Made by a program: the position numbers and the translations under genes
Shown here: positions 20,904 to 23,129 of the stretch, in pieces
Position numbering within the stretch: position 1 is the first letter of the stretch
Layout of the letters: each line of letters opens with the position of its first letter
The notes under the pieces: generated by a model
What the model was told of the DNA's origin: nothing
The model's input: only the letters and a program-made list of their open reading frames with translations
The model's database searches: none
IMG/VR virus record: IMGVR_UViG_3300044756_000031
Span: 1 to 36,910 of that record
Direction: 5' to 3' (one strand)
Source: a virus
DNA: 36,910 bases

Positions 20904-21274
20904 GCGCCCTGCGCCTCCTCTCCCCTCGCGACATTGCGCACGCCCTTGGGGTGTCGCGTTCGTACGCCTACGAGCTGGCCTCGCAGATGAGGCACCATAA
21001 GATTGGCCGCCTCCTCCGCGTCACCGAAGACGACTTCCGCGCGTGGCTCGCCTCCACTACCCTGCCCTCGTGCACCTCCTCCGTCGCGGACGAGTCTACT
21101 ATCTCGCGTGGTACGAAGACGGCCACAAGCACCGCGAGTCCACGGGGCTCACGGACAAGAAGGCAGCCGAAATCGCGTACCGAAAAAAGCAACGCGAGCT
21201 CGCGGATCCGGCCCATCACGCCGCGCACGAGGCCACCGTGCGATCTGCTGCCGAGCGATTTCTCGAAGAACTAG
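20900..21274 (+). CDS. Excisionase-like HTH protein overlapping int
   Basis: A 124-aa ORF from GTG 20900 (GTGA overlap). Residues 6-50 (LLSPRDIAHALGVSRSYAYE, KIGRLLRVTEDDFRAWLAS) match an HTH_17/excisionase-like winged helix: helix-turn-helix, a conserved basic wing and a final F-x-x-WL. From about residue 52 the sequence overlaps int in another frame by up to 232 nt and becomes low-complexity. The shorter functional product may be the HTH part, and the tail may simply be read-through to the next stop. It would direct excision or help Int bind attP. The int frame is -1 relative to this gene. Confidence 0.6.
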   Translation: MSALRLLSPRDIAHALGVSRSYAYELASQMRHHKIGRLLRVTEDDFRAWLASTTLPSCTSSVADESTISRGTKTATSTASPRGSRTRRQPKSRTEKSNASSRIRPITPRTRPPCDLLPSDFSKN

Positions 21275-22095
21275 AAGACGAGGACGTTGCGGCTGGCACC
21301 CGCAACATGTACGCGACGAAGGTGGCGCACGTCGCGAGGCTCCTGGGTGGGATTCGCCTGGTTGACTTGGCGGTCGCGCACACGTCGGCGTTCACGAAGG
21401 CAAGAACTGCCGAAGGCGCGAGCCGAGGCACGATCCACAAGGAGCTCGTGGCGCTCCGTCGAACGCTCAAGAGCGCCGCTCGAGCGGGAGAGCTATCTCG
21501 CGACCCGCGCGCGGTGATGCCGAAGTACTCGGCGCAGTACAAGCCCAAGGAGCAGATTGTCAGTGACGCGGACCTCTGGGCTGTGATGGCCCATCTAGAT
21601 CCAGGTCGCGCGTGCTGGGTTGCTCTCATGGTGGCGACAAGCGCACGGCTCGGCGAAGCGCGGCGGGTACGCGCTGAAGACTTGGGCGAGAGGAGCATTC
21701 GCCTGCGCGGCACCAAGACGGCCACATCGGCGCGCACCGTCCCAATCCTCTCGATGTTCGAGCCATGGGTCGAGTACGTGCGCAAGCACGCCGACGGCGA
21801 CGGCACTTTGCTCCTGCGCCCGTGGGGCAACATCCGGCGCGACCTGCACGCAGCTTGCGACCGGGCCGGTGTCCAGCGCTTCGGTCCGAACCATCTCCGG
21901 CACACCACGGCGACAAAGCTAGTGCGCGCCGGCGTGCCGTTCGAGCTCGCGGCAAAAGTCCTAGGCCACCGGTCAACCGCGATGCTACAGCGCGTCTACG
22001 GTCATCTCGATGCCAGCGACGTCGGTCGCCTCATTGAGGTCCACCTCAGGTCCACGGAAAGACGAAAAGCCAAAATCCTCAATCAGGGTCGATAG
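21043..22095 (+). CDS. int: Tyrosine integrase
   Basis: A 350-aa protein from GTG 21043; a GTG at 21070 is an equally good start since the arm-binding domain begins VHLLRRGRVYYLAWYEDG. Domain order: N-terminal arm-binding region (10-55), core-binding helices (60-150), catalytic domain (165-340). Catalytic set: Arg202 (TSARLGEARRV), Lys225 (GTKTATSARTV), Arg286 in NHLRHTTAT, His309 (LGHRS), Tyr319 (RVYGHLD). The His normally three residues before Arg286 (H-x-L-R) is Asn283 here. The gene ends GGTCGATAG, so its stop codon lies inside the tRNA-like attP core, similar to phage Mx8 whose attP lies in int. Confidence 0.9.
   Translation: MARLHYPALVHLLRRGRVYYLAWYEDGHKHRESTGLTDKKAAEIAYRKKQRELADPAHHAAHEATVRSAAERFLEELEDEDVAAGTRNMYATKVAHVARLLGGIRLVDLAVAHTSAFTKARTAEGASRGTIHKELVALRRTLKSAARAGELSRDPRAVMPKYSAQYKPKEQIVSDADLWAVMAHLDPGRACWVALMVATSARLGEARRVRAEDLGERSIRLRGTKTATSARTVPILSMFEPWVEYVRKHADGDGTLLLRPWGNIRRDLHAACDRAGVQRFGPNHLRHTTATKLVRAGVPFELAAKVLGHRSTAMLQRVYGHLDASDVGRLIEVHLRSTERRKAKILNQGR
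22037..22055 (+). repeat. Integrase arm-site candidates, left side of attP
   Basis: Two identical AGGTCCAC words at 22037-22044 and 22048-22055, exactly 11 bp apart (about one helical turn), inside the 3' end of int. The same GGTCCA word recurs on the other side of the att core. Direct repeats flanking a core are typical of lambda-type arm sites. Confidence 0.5.
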
Positions 22096-22127
22096 CTCAG
22101 TCGGTAGAGCTGCGGACTTTTAATCCG
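22086..22127 (+). other. attP core: 5' half of a tRNA-Lys(UUU) gene
   Basis: The sequence from GGGTCGA reads as a tRNA acceptor 5' strand, then T-A, the D arm GCTC-AGTCGGTA-GAGC, T, anticodon stem GCGGA, loop CTTTTAA (anticodon UUU) and TCCG. After that the match to a tRNA is lost: no T-arm pairing and no 3' acceptor strand. This is therefore not a working tRNA but the segment shared with a host tRNA-Lys gene, the expected attP identity block. Integration would supply a new 5' half to the host gene, making it downstream of int. Confidence 0.7.
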
Positions 22128-22184
22128 AAACAAGGGTCAATGGTTCGGCGAAGTGAGGGGTTTTGGCTGTCCGCACGATCCGCC

Positions 22185-22226
22185 AGGTCCACTATTCGTA
22201 CGTGGTCGGGTCCAAATAGGGTCCAG
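22185..22226 (+). repeat. Integrase arm-site candidates, right side of attP
   Basis: AGGTCCAC at 22185-22192, GGGTCCAA at 22208-22215 and GGGTCCAG at 22219-22226, the last two again 11 bp apart. They lie between the tRNA-like core and the endolysin stop (22231-22229). Same orientation and same GGTCCA word as the left-hand pair at 22037-22055. Confidence 0.5.
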
Positions 22227-22228
22227 CG

Positions 22229-22900
22229 CTAGGCCCCCGCCGGCACGTCCCCGTGCAGCCGAATCAGATCCACGCAGCCACCGTAGGCCAACACATTCCC
22301 CCGGTACTGCCACCCCACGACGTTGAAGCCGAGCGGGTCGTGCTCGTGGGCCTCGTAGTCCGCCACTATCAGCGGAAGCGCAGTGAACGCAGGAATGGTG
22401 GCCAGGCCCATGACGCCAATTTCTCCGGGCGAACTGTAGCCCCAGAGGTCGTCACCCGTAAGAGTGCGGTACGTGTCCACGAAGAGGGAGATGGCCTCGG
22501 ACGTTTCGGAGCGCGATGCGATGCGATTGCTCGAGCTGGTCTCGCCCAGCTCCACGTCTAGCAAGCCCGGCATGCTATCAACACAATGCGCAACCCGATG
22601 CGCCACGAACTCTCGCGCTTGCTCGTCGGCGTCTTGCGCGCGCCCGTGGCGTATCCGTAAGAAGTGGTACCCGCCAAGACGCTTCATGCCGGCGCCGCGT
22701 AGGCCCGTGCTGAGCACATCGAGCCACCGGTTCAGAGAGCCCACGCCATCGGTCACCTTGAGGAACGCGAAGGCTAGAGCGGCAGCTTCCTCATAACGCA
22801 GCGGCCCGCTGGATGCGTCGAAGCCTTCGGTGGTCACGAGTGCAGCGCCCACGCCAAAATGCTGCACGCGACTCCGACTAACAGACCAGTGAGGCCCCAT
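22229..22900 (-). CDS. Endolysin, GH25 muramidase
   Basis: A 223-aa protein. ATG 22900 was chosen for its GGAGG site 11 bases upstream rather than an upstream in-frame start at 22957 that overlaps the previous gene. GH25 signature: GFDAS near the start (Asp28), AFAFLKVTDG (44-52), GGYHFLR (76-82), LLDVELGE with the catalytic pair Asp115/Glu117, and the C-terminal GWQYRGN plus a CVDLIRLHGD end (Asp211). It cuts the glycan strand of peptidoglycan in the periplasm at the end of infection. No signal peptide is seen, so it should need the holin. Its stop lies beside attP arm sites. Confidence 0.9.
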   Translation of the reverse strand: MGPHWSVSRSRVQHFGVGAALVTTEGFDASSGPLRYEEAAALAFAFLKVTDGVGSLNRWLDVLSTGLRGAGMKRLGGYHFLRIRHGRAQDADEQAREFVAHRVAHCVDSMPGLLDVELGETSSSNRIASRSETSEAISLFVDTYRTLTGDDLWGYSSPGEIGVMGLATIPAFTALPLIVADYEAHEHDPLGFNVVGWQYRGNVLAYGGCVDLIRLHGDVPAGA

Positions 22901-22928
22901 GTCAGACGCTCCCTCCAAAGGGAAATCA

Positions 22929-23129
22929 TCAGTCGTCCTCGCGGTCCCAGCGGTCATCTTCCAACGGAATGAGCGCGAGGCAGTTGTTACGTTGCGTGAC
23001 GGCGTCTTGGCGCAGCTGATTTGCCCAGGCCTGGTTTTGCTGAGCCTGAATCTGAGCAGACTGCTGCTGCCACGCGGTCACTCCAAGCGCCTGGCAGACT
23101 TCGCAATTGCAGGGTTCGATGACGCTCAC
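22929..23129 (-). CDS. Small protein with CNCEVC hook
   Basis: A 66-aa protein with GTG at 23129 (GTGA). It starts VSVIEPCNCEVCQALG, with a compact Cys cluster, then a Gln-rich helix (QQQSAQIQAQQNQAWANQLR) and an acidic end (DDRWDREDD). Between the lysis genes and endolysin. Function is unknown. Confidence 0.6.
   Translation of the reverse strand: MSVIEPCNCEVCQALGVTAWQQQSAQIQAQQNQAWANQLRQDAVTQRNNCLALIPLEDDRWDREDD

Follow-up and report, generated by a model that had tools for sequence, protein, structure and literature searches.

A temperate-phage attachment site that probably rebuilds a host tRNA-Lys(UUU) gene from a phage-borne 5' half

What becomes of a presumably essential host gene when a phage integrates into it with the first, rather than the last, part of a transfer RNA (tRNA)? 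This question is raised by IMG/VR virus record IMGVR_UViG_3300044756_000031 (positions 1 to 36,910; this whole stretch of 36,910 nucleotides (nt) is called the window below), in which the integrase gene int reads into a sequence resembling the 5' half of tRNA-Lys(UUU). With a probability of about 0.87, we consider this locus to be the attachment site (attP) with which a temperate phage inserts itself into Polyangiales (Sorangium-like) hosts, its integrase (Int) recombining it at the anticodon stem-loop of the tRNA-Lys(UUU) gene, so that the tRNA is rebuilt from the phage-borne 5' half.

The original prediction had described segment 22086-22127 (plus strand) as a tRNA 5' half extending from the acceptor strand through the anticodon stem, and the match proved to be exact: the 42-mer recurs without a mismatch as nt 1-42 (acceptor 5' strand, D-arm and anticodon arm) of tRNA-Lys(UUU) at ten Polyangiales-type loci in nine genomes of a collection of 84,980 species, and at 10 of 10 places it forms the start of a complete tRNA-Lys(UUU). 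The record titles of the nine genomes name Sorangium, Polyangiaceae, Sorangiineae, Myxococcales or an uncultured deltaproteobacterium. Identity between phage and host begins exactly at tRNA nt 1 and stops after nt 42, on the 3' side of the anticodon stem, and the sequences diverge right outside both edges. Each complete Sorangium genome searched carries a single tRNA-Lys(UUU) gene. In line with the suggestion that hosts could be recognized by a tRNA-Lys(UUU) beginning with GGGTCGATAGCTCAG, such genes are present in Sorangium/Polyangiaceae-type genomes; an adjoining prophage of this phage, the other half of that suggestion, was not found. One candidate integration, a tRNA lying on two contig ends of TY_HY_2_bin.41 (L005 and L010), was rejected: the two contig ends overlap by about 141 nt, and each holds the full tRNA within this shared stretch.

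The gene int (21043-22095, plus strand) encodes a tyrosine recombinase of 350 amino acids (aa) (phrog_1, E = 4e-41; PF00589, E = 3e-16), the catalytic domain of which lies entirely on one side of the core and is not split by attP. As had been predicted, int has the same orientation as the core and reads toward and into it, and its TAG stop codon (22093-22095, plus strand) is located inside the tRNA-like segment, where it corresponds to tRNA nt 8-10. The window contains no complete tRNA gene (ARAGORN 0 genes, Rfam 0 matches). The 36.9-kb record encodes capsid, portal/head-tail adaptor, terminase, primase, tail fibre and endolysin proteins, and since phage genes lie on both flanks, the site is an uninterrupted attP and not a prophage end. 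Beyond the core follows a GH25-type endolysin gene (22229-22957, minus strand), which is convergent with it. Five copies of the hexamer GGTCCA on the same strand surround the core, two on the left within the int coding sequence (22038-22043 and 22049-22054, 11 bp apart) and three on the right (22186-22191, 22209-22214 and 22220-22225), with start-to-start spacings of 11, 137, 23 and 11, so that the outermost pair on each side is spaced by 11 bp. This arrangement resembles integrase arm sites, and binding by Int is plausible but unproven. An imperfect inverted repeat (22063-22078 and 22158-22173, 81%) also encloses the core and could be a site for an accessory protein or for the integrase. No DNA-level kin was found among GenBank phages, a single-protein search of IMG/VR gave no close relatives of int, a scan of the genome collection with a small int alignment yielded five loci, and the exact core was not seen elsewhere in IMG/VR among the matches listed.

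In the proposed integration, Int would catalyse recombination between attP and the stem-loop of the anticodon in the single-copy host gene and thereby create two junctions. One would consist of the host promoter, a displaced tRNA 5' fragment and the endolysin-side prophage end, the other of the int 3' end and a complete tRNA-Lys, its 5' half from the phage and its 3' half from the host. The presumed region of strand exchange is the stem-loop at 22112-22127 (plus strand; loop 22117-22123, anticodon TTT 22119-22121), because the cores of relatives mostly start at nt 26-30 and the core in the window ends at nt 42, the overlap being the stem-loop; the exact cut sites presumably fall here. The rebuilt tRNA-Lys would have the same orientation as int and would overlap its last codons, including the stop. 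It would have to be transcribed from phage sequence, since it overlaps the int end and the promoter of the host gene is left with the displaced, non-functional 5' fragment. The Int protein would be the same before and after integration, because its stop at nt 8-10 precedes the anticodon and is in the half supplied by the phage.

Polyangiales genomes were searched for 5' halves of tRNA-Lys(UUU), and about 60 neighbourhoods were inspected. Clear 5'-half insertions at this gene were identified in small-genome Polyangiales, and they show the same geometry that had been predicted for restoring the tRNA from the phage side. Empty sites consist of the promoter, tRNA-Lys and tRNA-Glu (L086, L087 and L090; genomes G045, G046 and G049). 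Junctions of the attL type carry the host promoter, tRNA-Lys nt 1-42 and the element (L081, L083, L085 and L091), the promoter region being alignable with that of the empty sites over 43-86 bp at 79-96% identity. Junctions of the attR type carry the element end, a full tRNA-Lys and the host tRNA-Glu (L082, L084, L088 and L094), and this side aligned with G045 and G049 over 134-167 bp at 91-98% identity. Tandem junctions occur at four loci (L089, L091, L092 and L093; G054, G055 and G048), and in these arrays the elements are separated by repeated tRNA 5' fragments; one 5.7-kb unit (L091) contains malic-enzyme and phosphoglucomutase genes together with an integrase remnant. In G048 (L088, the same place as L123), the integrase is co-oriented with the rebuilt tRNA-Lys and ends 27 nt before it; this protein is a distant relative of the Int of the window (30% identity over 145 aa). 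A 6.8-kb element in G151, a second case with good support, has left a displaced 39-nt 5' fragment of tRNA-Leu(CAG), and its int stop is located inside the rebuilt tRNA. The displaced 5' fragment belonging to the pattern is thus present for other elements at tRNA-Lys(UUU) and at tRNA-Leu.

Homologues of Int with 29-44% identity were detected in 27 of 184 Polyangiales genomes. They adjoin tRNAs, and most of the displaced fragments and phage-borne cores begin within the anticodon stem or next to it: displaced fragments in the genomes comprise tRNA-Met nt 30-76 and tRNA-Phe nt 28-74 and 29-74, the one in G143 starts at nt 39, and three IMG/VR relatives (L182-L184) have a tRNA-Phe core from nt 26-29 onward. 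Twenty homologues have a whole tRNA at their 3' end, in each case convergent with int, which means that the 3' part comes from the element. The window would fit a use of the same exchange site with the opposite tRNA half; the anticodon stem is a short inverted repeat and can be read in both directions. In 17 of these 20 convergent members int reads into its tRNA target. At fifteen loci (L014, L016-L018, L020, L023-L025, L029-L031, L033 and L040-L042) int runs antisense through the target tRNA and stops in the D-arm, giving protein tails such as GFSIPCSTN and WDYDSPALTD; after integration, the C-terminal end of these proteins would derive from host sequence, as in phage Mx8, and overlap of int and site of the Mx8 kind looks widespread in Polyangiales. 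A third configuration occurs in L185 and L022, which belong to the integrase family of the window: here a tRNA-Phe 3' half has the same direction as int, and int would therefore adjoin the displaced fragment instead of the rebuilt tRNA.

Of the 20 placed members of the G048-type integrase family, 6 share the orientation of their tRNA, and in five of the six (L132, L134, L136, L148 and L152) int runs in sense into the tRNA and stops inside or past it. On a tree of 44 integrases, the co-oriented 5'-half state requires five changes, at least four of them on well-supported branches. Two sister integrases (L130 and L132, 57% identical) adjoin tRNA-Arg(CCG) in opposite orientations, and similar GGCAC arm-like repeats occur near both sites. 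For the L132 element (genome G044), no displaced 5' fragment was found in 99 kb, so the case for it is a geometric one.

How would the rebuilt tRNA be expressed? Transcription could come from int by read-through, which is the simplest assumption for the window, or could start at a promoter within the int coding sequence, an arrangement that the related tRNA-Leu elements seem to use. In these elements, promoter-like sequences (TTGACG/TTGACA-17-TATCCC/TACATG) are found in the coding end of int, at nearly the distance from the tRNA at which the host promoter lies. In G151 the sequence TTGACG-17-TATCCC within int resembles the host TTGACG-17-TACATG, and the upstream regions of attL and attR are closer to each other than 99.4% of random segments (0.6% align as well). 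The segments concerned are L157 4788-4886 and 11596-11741 (G151), and sequences like the host tRNA-Leu promoter also occur in the coding 3' end of int in L158 and L159, suggesting that int of these three loci may encode a protein and supply a tRNA promoter at once. At the opposite junction of a lysogen, the endolysin gene of the window would lie just inside the end that keeps the host tRNA promoter; this stranded promoter could possibly transcribe antisense into the GH25 endolysin gene, with silencing of the lysis gene as a possible outcome.

Several findings weigh against the proposed integration. No lysogen of this phage was found and no close relative of its int either, the best match reaching 42% identity, and the relatives of its own integrase family with a placeable tRNA piece all carry the 3' half. 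The GGTCCA repeats are just moderately unusual: when the 190 bp were shuffled 5000 times, 11 shuffles (about 0.2%) contained a hexamer with at least five copies, and other segments of the phage genome reach five copies as well, with hexamers such as CTGCTG, CTGCGC, TCGGCG and CGACGA. No sigma70-like promoter above background was detected upstream of the core, a result that is uninformative because a genuine Sorangium tRNA-Lys promoter scores equally low. Two other readings of the locus were weighed. The phage may once have carried a whole tRNA-Lys(UUU), the 3' half of which has degenerated, its location at int being coincidental or secondary. The stretch GGTCAATGGTTCG at 22135-22147 is weakly similar (p about 0.02) to GGTCCAGGGTTCG, the T-arm region of the host tRNA, and is perhaps the trace of an older tRNA 3' half; it is, however, about 5 nt out of register. 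Decay would also have to leave the first 42 nt unchanged while the remainder was lost, and to break off at the anticodon stem, precisely where integrases of the window's family exchange strands, in a piece that abuts int and sits between arm-like repeats. We therefore regard decay as very improbable. Slightly less credit still is given to a switch in which attP lies in int and integration alters the C-terminus and the activity of Int. When Mx8 integrates, its int receives a new 3' end and encodes an altered protein (PMC6070905), int overlaps the core in the window too, and many Polyangiales relatives have integrases that read past the anticodon of their target and would be completed by the host. 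In the window, however, the stop at tRNA nt 8-10 is in the phage-supplied half and precedes the presumed crossover, which would leave the protein unchanged, the Mx8 integrase is not detectably homologous, and its tRNA-like piece is antisense. The original suggestion that the locus is a variant of the Mx8 strategy could thus not be upheld.

A further idea would add to rebuilding from the 5' half rather than replace it, and we consider it doubtful, if less so than the two alternatives above. In a lysogen the int transcript would contain a full tRNA, and cleavage by RNase P at nt 1 would remove the int stop codon, so that Int synthesis would fall; in the free phage, int mRNA would stay intact, as no tRNA is able to fold there. 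Removal of the stop codon in lysogens alone is, as a proposal, new. It would be consistent with the int stop inside the tRNA in the window and with the five of six co-oriented relatives in which int ends inside or beyond the tRNA. It was derived from the geometry, and several points speak against it. The integrase at L123 ends ahead of the tRNA, RNase P could be kept away by ribosomes that sit on the stop codon, lysogens may not express int in any case, and convergent relatives, in which the mechanism cannot work, usually show the overlap as well.

If rebuilding from the phage-borne half takes place as proposed, a presumably essential tRNA gene would be passed to phage transcription, and survival of the lysogen would depend on prophage expression. 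Insertion by the 5' half occurs repeatedly in a single bacterial order, among related integrases of which some use one tRNA half and some the other. These integrases, the sisters at tRNA-Arg(CCG) included, offer natural pairs in which orientation flipping at a near-palindromic anticodon stem, and feedback of tRNA processing on int, could be studied.

The original prediction had noted that most elements carry the 3' part of their tRNA. The rarity of the other class was confirmed by the Islander survey, in which 159 of 3919 tRNA-gene islands (about 4%) have a 5' fragment (Hudson et al. 2015, PMC4383910), but the style is not unprecedented: insertion by the 5' half is rare and already known. In the Islander class, the 5' part of the tRNA gene travels with the element, a displaced 5' fragment is left behind and exchange occurs near the anticodon loop (site A), as proposed here; the window differs in being a free phage genome and not an island, and in an int that reads into the tRNA and stops inside it, which the passages considered do not describe as a feature of the class. 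Archaeal pTN3-like integrases likewise use a tRNA 5' half, comparable to the core of the window, and the integrase promoter is reported to drive the rebuilt tRNA (Cossu et al. 2017, reviewed in PMC8371274), a situation that the review calls seldom encountered in bacteria. The geometry of the window would fit tRNA transcription of this kind, although the pTN3 integrase is archaeal and suicidal, its gene being split on integration, whereas int of the window stays whole and is of a bacterial phage type. Mx8 (NC_003085) shares with the window an int that overlaps the attachment core, a myxobacterial host and a tRNA-like sequence at the site, but its tRNA-like piece is the T-arm/3' part, antisense to int, and the two integrases align only marginally (24.6% over 142 aa, E = 0.01). 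In the tRNA-dependent lysogeny of actinophages, the phage carries a whole tRNA gene and viability of the lysogen depends on its contribution to tRNA-Lys(UUU) (PMC10865867); a lysogen of the window's phage would likewise depend on the phage for this essential tRNA, but the actinophages do not rebuild the host tRNA, whereas the window, which holds no whole tRNA, would supply its 5' half.
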